From the NCBI GenBank assembly GCA_963930775.1, contig OZ005693.1, forward strand, positions 9,050,006-9,114,005: a stretch of DNA of 64,000 nt. Reading direction: 5' to 3'. The translations under genes were made by a program, and so were the position numbers. The stretch is from Cliona cf. orientalis. Taxonomy: Eukaryota; Porifera; Demospongiae; Clionaida; Clionaidae. The notes beneath the pieces were generated by a model, which saw nothing but the letters and a program-made list of their open reading frames with translations, was not told where the DNA came from and did no database searches. This document shows positions 15,101-39,100 of this stretch, piece after piece; the first letter of the stretch is position 1, and each line of letters begins with the position of its first letter.

Positions 15101-18100
15101 CTTCCTTCCCTTCGTGATCAAGCATCTTAGGACCAAATTTCTAAGCAATTTAACATGTGATAATGCAAATATTGTGTAAATTCTTATGTTGAATAATTTA
15201 GGTACATGTGCACTAGTTAGACTGTGCTCTCTCTCAAAAAATGGCTACTCAGTCCAGGGACTAATAGACAAAGTGAAGGATATAATATAGATAATTCGGC
15301 TAGTCTATAGGAACCAATGATAGCATTCTCTCTCACATTATGGTCAGGTCCGCCCAGCTCCAGTATCCTCTCCTCCCAGTGCCTCTTCTCTCTCAGCAGC
15401 TTGTTGATCTCATCGTTCAAGTCACGGATACGAAATTCACCAAGACCAGCTGAAACACAACATAAACAAACATCACTTCTGTTTAATGAGCTACTATACA
15501 CATTTTTTGTTAGTACAGTTTATTATACTTACGATTCTGAATCTGAGACACTTTTCGTGATATCTCCCTAATAACCTATAGTATACAAAATAGACATTTA
15601 TAACAAGAATTTTGAGAAGAAATTAGCATAAACAACTATGTGTCCATATTTTGGGAAATAATATTATCAACTAGCTCTAGTGCTATTAATACACGACAAG
15701 TACTTGTACCCATGAAGCAAAACTTGTTTATGGCAATCAACATGTCAGTCGTTTTCTACATTCTAATCTTGGTATGCCACTTAGCGTCTATATCAACAAG
15801 TAATACCTTTCAAGATATTTTATGTCCTGGAGATGTACTAACCACTGAGTGTGCCACTATGGGCGATGGAATAACAGTGTGGCAAGGAACAGCTTTTCAG
15901 TGTCATTACAGTAGTAGTAACATAATTCTTCTACTACATAGTCGATTTACAGGATCACATTACCCTACAGGGTCTTGCAACAATGGAGCAATTGTTGCCC
16001 AAGGCCTTGGAGTTGTCAATGATAGTTACATCTCTCAATTAAATGTCACAGTGAGTCCTGAACTGAACAATACAACTGTGGAGTGTTGGCATGACAACTA
16101 CACAGCAGAAATATTCATCAGATCAATTCAAATTACTGTAGTAGCAACAGGTAAGTAAGAATAAAATTAATGTCGAATTAGTACTATAACAATACCTTAA
16201 TTAAATTTCTATTACGTAGATTCTGTAAAAATTTCCAGTATTGGTATTTTGAACATCAACTCAAGAGAGGTAACCTTCCACTGGACTTGGCCATACGATA
16301 ATATGATATGCTCACTGACAGTCAGTCACTATGAGCTCACAGCAACCAACTGTGGTAGATGTCCCAATGAGAAAAGCAGACTAGATACACAAGCCACATG
16401 CACTGAGATAAGCACTGATGGGAGACTGTGTACGTTTAGTGTTCAAGCAATTGGAACTTTTAATGGACGCCAGCCCGTCTCAATTACAGCCCTTCTCAAA
16501 GGTAAAGTACATGTACATGTAATTATCCCTCAAAATTATTCTCAATGGAACTGTTTGTGTGCATTAAGTTCCAGATATACCCCGAGTAAATTTCATGCAC
16601 CATCGAGCAGCTAATAATCTACAAGAAGATGTACGTCTACTAAGCATACTCATAAATGAAGTGGTAAGCCGATGTCATCATTCGATGCTCTAGCTATTAC
16701 ATAATGAACTTAACCTACTGTATGCTCTTTAATAGGCTCCGTTCAACATCAGTGATGAGGTTGATGGCTCTGCCACCTCCTATACTATCACCTACACTGA
16801 CTCCACCTTCAGCTACATTTGTGGCTCGACTGTGATCTCCGCTTCAACTTGTGAGAGTGGTGTCTGTAGTGACTGGTTTGACATAGCTTCTTCCCCATGT
16901 GATCGGTCCACTGGCGTCACGGTGACTGCCTTTGCCACCAACCTGCTAGGAGATGGACCACCTTCACAACCAATACAGATTGTCTTGCTGTCGGACAATG
17001 GTACAAGAATCAGGGCTGCAATTAGGATTTCTTTCAAGGGGGGTGGGGGGGGGCTTTCCCAGTGTATCAGGGGGAGGCAAAATCACGTCAAAAGCCACTC
17101 TAAATCTTAAGAGGGTAATGCCCCACCCCTGAACATGTACATGCATATATTAATTACGGATGAGTGCTAATTGTATGCTTTACAGAAGGTGCTGGCTATC
17201 CAGTAAATGAGAAGTTGGACTTGAGATTTATAGTTTTTTCAACCGTCAGTTCAGCTGCCATCATTCTCCTGTTAGCTAGTATCTTTGTGATCATAGCTAT
17301 AGTTGTACGACGGAGAAAGAGTCAAGGAGATGATGCCAACAGTGGAAATGAGGGAACAGAAGCTACTGCTGTTTATGATGAGATCAACCTACATCCACCT
17401 TCATCAGCAGACATAGACACTAAAGAAAACGTTGCTTACAGACAAACTATGTTTACATAACTGCAATATACATTATAAATGCTCCCACCCACATAATTGG
17501 TGGGATTTGTGTGTATAATACAATAGTGTTGTGAAAAAGCGCTCATGGGCAGTGGGCCTTATATCTTGGGCTCAAACTGGGAGGGGGAGGGGGGGGTGGG
17601 CCGAGATTCCAGCTATTATTGTGTACGACTAGTAGTAAGTACACAAAGTAGTGTAAAATTAACCATGTATGGCATCGCAGAATATGCACCTTGTACTAGA
17701 GCAAACCAATGTGCAGCAGTGTCATTTGTACCTAGCACTAGCAATCTGCATATACTCTTGATGCTACCTTGGCACAGAAGCTACTAAAATAATGTGGAAT
17801 CCATTACTCGTAATAAATTATCTTTTTATACATGATATTTTGTAGGTGCAGTAATTAAATCAGTTACACCAGTTGCATATAAATACCATGTGACAATTAA
17901 GCATGTACATTACTATTATGATTCAGATTATTGCCCAACATACTGAATTGTTCTGAAAAAAAATTAACGTATAGTATACAAAATAATGACACTTCTGACA
18001 AACACTTTACTAATTAGCATAAACAATCCTGTATCTTTGTTTTTGGGAAATAATAATTATGTAAATGTACATGTAGTAGATACAATAGCTCTAGTGCTGC

Positions 18101-36100: not shown

Positions 36101-39100
36101 ACTACACAATCGATTTGGAACATCATACAACTATATACAGACTTGTAACAATGGAGCAATTGTTGCCCGAGCCCTTGGAGTTGTCAATAATAGTTACATT
36201 TCTCAATTGAATGTCACAGTGAGTCTGGGATTGAATAACACAACAGTGGTGTGTTTGCATGATACTGGCATAATAGTCACAGTCATCAGATCGATTCAGA
36301 TTATCGTGTTAGCAACAGGTAAGCAAGAATAAATTTAATGCCACACCACCAATGTATAGTACAGTACAGACCAGCAGAAAGGTAAATTAATCCTGTGAGA
36401 TATCTGCTAGCTGCATTCTGCCCATAATTGTTTATCCTCCTGGCTGTGGATACAATGTGGGTGACCGGGGCATGCATGTTGCGGTACATGGGAGACATTT
36501 ACCTTTCCATCGGTCTGTAATTATTGGCAGAAAAAAATATGTAATTTCTGTGGCACCTTTCAAAATTACATGTATGATGTCAGGCAGTTGCAATGGTCAT
36601 GATCTCATGTTACATAGATTCTATAAATATTGATATTTTGGACTTAAACTCAAGAGAGGTAACCTTCAACTGGACTCAGCCAGATAATGCTATGTGCTCA
36701 CTCAGTCACTATGAGCTCACGGCAACCAACTGTGGTAGATGTCCCAATGAGACTAGCAGACTAGATACACAAGTCACATGCACTGAGATTAGCACTGATG
36801 GGAGACTGTGTACATTTAGTGTTCAAGCCATTGGCATTTTCCAGAATGTCTCAATTATAGCCTTTCTTAAAGGTAAAATAATTACGCCTCAAAAATTGAT
36901 CTTTATATTATTACATATATTTGTGCATTAAGTTCCAGATATGCTCCATGTCAATGTTACGCACTACCGGGCAGCTAACAATCCACAAGAAGATCTACTA
37001 AGGGTACTCATAAATGAAGTGGTAAGCCAATGTCATCATTCTATGCTCTATTTCTAACAATTAAATTTTATGCTCTTTAATAGGCTCCATTCAACATCAG
37101 TGATGAGGTTGATGGCTCTGCCACCTCCTATACTATCATCTACACTGACTCCACCTTCAGCTACATTTGTGGCTCGACTGTAATCTCCGCTTCAACTTGT
37201 GAGAGCGGTGTCTGTAGTGACTGGTTTGACATAGCTTCTTCCCCATGTGCTCGGTCTACTAGCATCACAGTGACTGCCTTTGCCACCAACCTACTAGGAG
37301 ATGGACCACCTTCACAACCAATAGAAATATTGCTGTCAGAAAATGGTAAGCAAATCAGGGTTGCATTTCAAGTGTACAGGGGGGGGGGGGTGTCAAGTCA
37401 CATATCAATGCCATACTATACTATAAATCTCAAGGGGGTACTAAACATCCAGTAAGGGGGAAATCACTCCTCCCCCACCCCCTAAATGCAGCCCTATGAA
37501 TGCACGTATTGTTAAATGCTGGATTAATGTCAGATTGCATACTTCGCAGATGGTGACTTAAGACTTATTGTTTTTTCAAGTATCAGTTCAGCTGCCAACA
37601 TTCTTCTTTTAGCTAGTATCTTTGTGATCATAGCCATAGTTGTACGACGGAGAAAGAGTCAAGGAGATGATGCCAGTAGTGGAAATGAGGGAACAGAAGC
37701 TACTGCTGTTTATGATGAGATCAACCTTCATCCACCTTCATCGGCAGACATTGATACCAAAGAGAACATTGCTTACAGATAAACTATCCTTAAGTAATTG
37801 CAATGCTGTATAGCTGAAATATTGGCGGGAATTAAATTTTGGCGGTTGAGACCAAAATTGCTATTGCAAGAACATTAGCAGATTTAAATTTGGTGGCTTG
37901 GTATGGGATCGCCATACGTATATGTGCGAACAGGAAATTTTGGCAGATTTTAATTTGGTAGTTGTAATATATATATACCAGGACTCATAATATGTATAGC
38001 ATTGTGAATAAGGGCCCATGGGCAGTGGCCTTACCTTGGGCTCAAATTGGGGGGGGGGGGGGGGGGGGGGGGGGGGGGGGGGGGGAAGACATCCTAGCTA
38101 TCAGCATTATTGTCTACTACTAGTAGTAAGTGCACAAAGCAGTGCAAAATAATAATAATAATATAACAGTGTACGACATCGCAGGCTAAGCATCTTACTT
38201 TGCAGATGGTATTGGTTGCCCAGTATTTGATATAAGATTTATAGTTTTTTCAACCGTCAGTTCAGCTGCCAATATTCTCCTGTTAGCTAGTATCTTTGTG
38301 ATCATAGCTATAGTTGTACGACGGAGAAAGAGTCAAGGAGATAATGCCAACAGTGGAAATGAGGGAACAGAAACTACTGCTGTTTACGATGAGATCAACC
38401 TTCATCCACCTTTATCGGCAGAGATCAACACCAAAGAGAATATTGCTTACAGATTTTAAGTAACTAGAATTTAATGCACGCGTACATGTACACCATACAT
38501 GTAGCAAAACTTTCACTCTTGTGTGGTGAATACAGATGCATATCTGATCGCTCCAAGTTTAAATCACAAATATAAAGTACTACAATACAGTACAGAGTCG
38601 ACCACCGCAATTACTAGCCCCACAATATTAGGTCAAACTTGCCAACAATAATATCATTAAACCACAGAAATAAAATTAGTCCTATACGTGAGTCATCCTT
38701 CTCATGTATGGTACTTATATTGTATAGATTATTAACACCAAAATATACTGGTAATTACTACATAATTTTACTAACCTGCACTCGCCATTTCTCAGCTGCT
38801 CTCAAGTTATCACACTCTGTTGCTAAATAAGGTCTCCTTTGCTGCAAAGGGAACGGTATTATGATCATTGGCATGGCATATACAAACACTCTGGCCCAGT
38901 AGTACCTTAGTCTTTCCCCCAGACTTCTTCATCTCATAGAAGCGATTCAACAGCAACCTACAGTTTGGTACCTTTCATTAATATTTGATCATCGATTATT
39001 TTACTGAATGAATGTGGATCATTTTATATCCACAAAGGTTGTCATGCTATAATACCCCCCCCCCCCCATGCTTACAGTAAATCTTTTAAAATTATAGTAA

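Follow-up and report, generated by a model that had tools for sequence, protein, structure and literature searches.

Within a 64,000-nucleotide stretch of the genome of the sponge Cliona cf. orientalis (hereafter the window), the spliceosome gene ISY1 carries in its fourth intron a tandem array of receptor genes encoded on the opposite strand. An intact host gene, a single 23.2-kb intron, seven antisense units with three lone exons, a candidate promoter region confined to the array, mosaic units, and a first exon that varies more than the later ones can all be read directly from the sequence. Very probably, a receptor gene belonging to a large sponge family came to lie antisense in ISY1 intron 4 and was multiplied there by tandem duplication.

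ISY1 is intact on the - strand, with 13 coding exons in a single open frame of 284 aa and GT/AG boundaries at 12/12 introns. We picked the exon ends with human ISY1 as a guide, and the human protein matched the gene over its full length (phmmer E 2.4e-106, 1-283 to 1-285). When the genome (216.8 Mb in 149 contigs, with the window on contig C5) was searched with an approximate query, the N-terminal 99 residues of ISY1 containing two errors, the matches were two exons of this same gene only, and a single apparent copy of ISY1 was found. Donor, acceptor and phase are all correct for joining exon 4, which ends at 38776, to exon 5, which starts at 15575. As the preliminary description had proposed, these exons flank one in-phase intron while the other introns stay below 1.3 kb; the remaining 11 measured 64-1,247 bp. 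The only N run in the window (307-506) lies outside intron 4. On contig C12, an approximate silicatein query matched pieces with 84% and 81% identity, the first of which has solved silicatein alpha as its best match among 137 distinct sequences (E 1.4e-26), in keeping with a demosponge genome.

Searches of the window with the exons of the second unit, U2, returned nine copies of exon 1, one of them split in two, along with seven each of exons 2, 3 and 4, and eight of exon 5. Every match lay on the + strand and, U2 itself aside, was 70-95% identical to the query. The previously proposed composition, with all units opposite to ISY1, was thereby confirmed: seven five-exon units, two lone first exons and one lone last exon, the units being homologous and arranged head to tail. 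Intron phases of 1,1,0,1 and GT/AG sites are kept in 7/7 units. The array spans 15742-38459, wholly inside the intron, and leaves 166 and 316 bp of it at the two ends. The host gene and array are laid out as follows.

12199..39249, - strand: ISY1 host gene (open frame, GT/AG introns, full-length human ISY1 match)
38776..38841, - strand: ISY1 exon 4, donor gttagt (gene model)
15576..38775, - strand: ISY1 intron 4, 23,200 bp, phase 0, gap-free (gene model, N scan)
15533..15575, - strand: ISY1 exon 5, acceptor ctatag (gene model)
15742..17460, + strand: U1, open; exons 15742-16150, 16220-16501, 16575-16663, 16736-17000, 17186-17460
18170..19924, + strand: U2, open; exons 18170-18569, 18635-18910, 18988-19076, 19133-19397, 19623-19924
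22295..22691, + strand: S1, lone first exon (IgV), open, GT donor kept, upstream of U3
23808..25892, + strand: U3, open; exons 23808-24225, 24608-24892, 24954-25036, 25099-25363, 25591-25892
26549..28381, + strand: U4, TAA in exon 1; exons 26549-26960, 27160-27438, 27503-27585, 27648-27912, 28101-28381
29218..29623, + strand: S2, lone first exon (IgV), open, GT donor kept, upstream of U5
30525..32600, + strand: U5, exon 1 (30525-31107) broken by an insert; open exons 31333-31605, 31678-31763, 31822-32086, 32299-32600
33201..35242, + strand: U6, open; exons 33201-33603, 34007-34291, 34351-34439, 34502-34757, 34965-35242
35913..37782, + strand: U7, open, stops five residues before the other units; exons 35913-36318, 36618-36872, 36939-37021, 37084-37345, 37550-37782
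38206..38459, + strand: S3, lone last exon (transmembrane stretch and tail); homology to U2 exon 5 stops at 38453

Five of the seven units (U1, U2, U3, U6 and U7) are open, U7 being five residues short. The first exons of U4 and U5 are broken by a premature TAA and by an insert of ~174 bp with stops, respectively (2/9 first exons). Three poly-G runs of 32-37 bases on the + strand (26009-26040, 35351-35384 and 38049-38085) follow U3, U6 and U7 at corresponding positions and may form G-quadruplexes.

These three runs would favor an assembly artefact, in which ISY1 had been fused with unlinked sequence or with extra haplotype copies. We regard this as highly improbable, given that the intron holds no N, that the units diverge more than expected of alleles (on average 80% identity in exon 1 and 61-77% in introns), that the edge of the array falls at the ISY1 3' splice site, and that no second ISY1 copy was found in the genome search.

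Receptor products and their relatives

Translation of any open unit gives a hydrophobic leader and an IgV-like domain, then a probable FN3-type stalk, a transmembrane stretch and a short tail in which two tyrosines are conserved. The products are single-pass proteins whose head is predicted to adopt a V-type immunoglobulin (Ig) fold, which supports the surface-receptor reading given in the preliminary description. Pfam returned no Ig family match for the receptor and no domain match for exons 3-4, the latter slightly lowering our confidence in the overall explanation. The FN3 family PF00041 scored on exon 2 at 19.7 bits in U6 and 21 bits in U2, both below the cut-off of 25, with none in U1, and the structure prediction for exon 2 (pLDDT 49) was too poor to use. 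A viral fold library gave no match at E <= 0.001, and a search of 5.8 billion proteins yielded one relative, P0001, with 34% identity over 43% of the query. Compared with the vertebrate IgV receptors TLT-1, TREM and NKp44, the sponge proteins lack a Pfam Ig match and have an FN3-like stalk, and likely share only the fold.

The immunoreceptor tyrosine-based inhibitory motif (ITIM) has the pattern [SIVL]xYxx[IVL]. All eight array tails read TAVYDEI and depart from it by the A at Y-2; the tails of two relatives elsewhere in the genome, L040 (IIYEDI) and L041 (VIYEEV), fit. We propose that transcription of each unit would start from the region immediately preceding its own first exon, that its product would be a single-pass surface receptor with IgV head, FN3-like stalk, transmembrane segment and tyrosine tail, and that the tail, once phosphorylated, would bind SH2 or PTB partners.

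The family extends well beyond ISY1. The first exon has at least 151 matches in the genome, a lower bound from scoring 150 of 372 candidates, of which ten lie in the array (U5 counted as two pieces) and 141 outside. Of the 105 matches to exon 4, seven are array copies, as are eight of the ten matches to exon 5. The same five-exon order of this CPGD-type IgV receptor family recurs outside ISY1 at L040 (~C1:9276756-9278475), judged from exon matches, not splice sites; all five exons lie there in order with 44, 37, 38, 64 and 32% identity to exons 1-5 of U2, and a partial further relative lies 4 kb beyond. Another copy, on contig C3, has a first exon 68% identical to that of U6, while its exons 2 and 4 reach only 34-43%, and it shows a weak Death-like match (E 0.042) below the cut-off. 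At this C3 relative (L038, 4018-7543) the IgV and FN3-like parts share one open frame, with YADV and YAEL motifs and the Death-like match beyond. A dense cluster of IgV exon relatives lies at C1:2.75-3.05 Mb, with the listed matches on the - strand and scattered others to ~4.7 Mb.

The first-exon tree (31 rows, 30 of them different, U5 excluded, 22 of the 141 outside-array matches included) placed eight array exons and the C3 copy in one group (99/98), with C3 beside S2 (99/97), and a clade of array exons alone was weakly rejected (p-AU 0.034). That the C3 first exon groups inside the array would suit an origin by block transfer, in which a piece of an older array elsewhere moved into the intron, as opposed to one founder expanding in place. 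The array is also cut at both ends, at the splice site on the left and within exon 5 on the right, and its right flank of 316 bp has no match to inner spacers. Set against this, the U7 promoter flank has ten matches in the genome, all within the array at the sensitivity of the search tool, and the closest exon 4 outside the array is just 64% identical. We consider a block transfer possible but doubtful.

Divergence and exchange among the units

Conservation differs markedly along the unit. Mean between-unit identity, taken over the seven units with gaps ignored and U5 excluded for exon 1, was 95.0% in exon 4, 92.2% in exon 5, 89.7% in exon 2, 86.0% in exon 3 and 79.8% in exon 1, and 61.5-76.6% in the introns. 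Mean synonymous divergence (dS) declines from 0.35 in exon 1 to 0.09 in exon 4, and mean dN/dS for exons 1-5 was 0.63, 0.40, 0.70, 0.44 and 0.34, the exon 1 set taking in the broken U4 and U5.

These values bear on whether the array is decaying, with most units being pseudogenes carried as intron filler. The two broken first exons of nine, the three lone exons and the shortened U7 point that way; however, five of seven units are open, exons are more conserved than introns, mean dN/dS is 0.40, 0.44 and 0.34 for exons 2, 4 and 5, and the splice phases are retained in all seven units, so that we judge general decay to be quite unlikely.

The nearest neighbor of U1 is U2 for intron 1, U5 for intron 2 and U4 for intron 4, and incompatibility among neighboring sites was 0.496 against a permuted mean of 0.580, with 0/2000 permutations as low (107 sites, exons 2-5 and introns). 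Because nearest neighbors switch along the unit and neighboring sites are less incompatible than by chance, the units exchange sequence and are mosaics. Under expansion in place, unequal crossing-over and gene conversion would homogenize the later exons as the IgV exon diverges.

Within exon 1, pN/pS across eight sequences, with region limits that we set from the model, was 1.90 in the CDR1-like, 1.14 in the CDR2-like and 1.03 in the CDR3-like loop, compared with 0.46 in C-C', 0.62 in the framework and 0.54 in the leader; pooled loops gave 1.0. This pattern fits variable recognition loops or relaxed constraint, and we do not claim positive selection on the IgV loops. Since variation peaks in these loops, a role in self or non-self recognition is likely.

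In UGT1A and protocadherin clusters, lone variable first exons lie upstream of a complete set of later exons, and S1 and S2 resemble such exons by position. They may thus act as alternative first exons, S1 for exons 2-5 of U3 and S2 for exons 2-5 of U5, onto which they would splice because a first exon has no 3' splice site; the array would then be partly like those clusters, and antisense ISY1 transcription may help choose the promoter. Both are open with GT donors and bear the array promoter flank, no exon 2-5 match precedes the next unit's first exon, S2 adjoins the broken exon 1 of U5, the array-type first exon on C3 sits on a different body and first exons have therefore moved independently, and antisense transcription has been reported to gate receptor arrays in ants (PMC12393541). 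Yet all seven units possess a set of later exons of their own, which a true shared-constant cluster would not show, unequal crossing-over ordinarily leaves lone exons as debris too, and no lone exon immediately precedes U4, whose first exon is broken. We offer the proposal tentatively and think it improbable on balance.

The array boundary and ISY1-sense signals

Closer inspection of the left edge revealed that the 5' flank of U1 is homologous to the flanks of other units from 15572-15579 onward, which is the ISY1 3' splice site (15576); adding 460 bp of ISY1 to the flank query gained nothing significant on the exon side. Two features are relevant here.

15576..15667, unstranded: end of the ISY1 intron (AG on the - strand), also the U1 5' flank, homologous to the flanks of other units
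23656..23671, unstranded: copy of the ISY1 3' splice-site sequence before U3, AG on the ISY1-sense strand

Copies of the ISY1 acceptor with <=2 mismatches lie at 17970 (U2), 23656 (U3), 26360 (U4), 29066 (S2), 33019 (U6) and 35731 (U7), a weaker copy precedes U5 and none precedes S1. Among the seven places examined, only the U3 copy keeps the AG on the ISY1-sense strand. A further two-mismatch match at the U2 start codon looks like chance. The exon 5 acceptor itself scored 4.1, within ISY1's own range of 2.4-12.5, and 66/1,357 intron AGs scored as high or higher, on a weak scoring scheme in which 28 of 35 training sites were receptor near-copies. Two origins would account for this: in-place copying of the units from one abutting ISY1 exon 5, or an insertion that gave ISY1 its present splice site.

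ISY1 transcription would cross the array, and the entire array would be removed as an intron. On the ISY1-sense strand of intron 4 we counted 2 AATAAA signals against 10-12 expected, compared with 15 against 16-18 on the opposite strand. As controls we took 24 loci of the family elsewhere in the genome (89 kb in total, with some overlap, and L012 excluded as lying largely in L038), where the antisense count was 45; 0/20,000 resamplings of these controls, which were chosen after the first counts were known, were as low as the ISY1 intron. The scarcity suggests selection for undisturbed ISY1 transcription. Weighing against this, the units are not independent, ATTAAA is not depleted on the ISY1-sense strand (22 against 11-14), and AATAAA ranks just 11th-22nd in depletion among 517-636 hexamers.

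In the most far-reaching reading, host and array would be coupled: the ISY1 3' splice site would consist of receptor-unit sequence, the array would have been purged of ISY1-sense AATAAA and most splice-site AG copies, ISY1 transcription would select the active antisense IgV first exon, and lone exons would use the next unit's body. We hold this to be unlikely; if true, a constantly transcribed spliceosome gene would be a built-in selector for a recognition-receptor repertoire.

A short repeat is common to the array (after U7, 37808-37971) and two other ISY1 introns (14444-14596 and 13138-13220), and is perhaps a small transposon. ISY1 stands head to head with an MBD4-like gene on the + strand, part of whose frame (39715-40323) matches MBD4 (phmmer E 4.7e-9). 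Their start codons would be ~195 bp apart if the MBD4-like gene starts at the ATG at 39444, and the spacer (39249-39444) is a probable bidirectional promoter. Elsewhere in the window, two divergent single-frame RING/B-box (TRIM-like) genes lie at 41273-45152, and a single open frame of 5,471 aa on the - strand (45422-61837) has Chlamydia-PMP-type repeats (Pfam PF02415) in its first 700 residues, its last 600 residues having no Pfam match and looking multi-pass. An ERG4/ERG24-type sterol reductase occupies one open frame at 7849-9117 (- strand), and a tRNA gene at 6703-6774 (- strand) gives the window's sole match to Rfam at the gathering threshold.

Relation to known nested genes and receptor arrays

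Genes within introns are common, and the preliminary description's view that the arrangement is unusual holds for the array, of which our literature searches found no report, and less so for nesting as such. We know of no other receptor array in such placement. Aphrocallistes vastus is reported to have 2,432 nested genes and Amphimedon queenslandica 3,358 (PMC10282587), so genes in introns, of the same kind as here, are frequent in sponges, while a nested tandem receptor array is not described in the passages of that source consulted; Amphimedon introns are reported to be small (PMC4773876). A nested cluster is known from the Drosophila dunce intron, which holds Sgs4 and four ng genes (PMC10835880). 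It likewise places small, partly related secreted-protein genes inside an unrelated gene's intron, but those genes are of the glue type and called intronless, whereas the Cliona cluster comprises seven multi-exon receptor units antisense to a spliceosome gene. The ant odorant receptor arrays (PMC12393541) are also tandem receptor arrays, and would likewise lie in the path of antisense transcription; at the sponge locus that transcript would be the pre-mRNA of a housekeeping gene. Nested genes and clusters are thus already known; what is new, as far as the literature searched shows, is a multi-exon receptor array lying antisense within a spliceosome gene.

How a spliceosome gene copes with a 23-kb antisense array that changes within one of its introns, and how a receptor family can diversify when confined to a host gene, are questions for which this locus provides a natural experiment. 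The host constraint can be measured from sequence alone in more haplotypes and species, through copy number, splice-site relics and poly(A) depletion. For sponges, the array represents an IgV-type receptor branch that may contribute to the recognition of self or of microbes.
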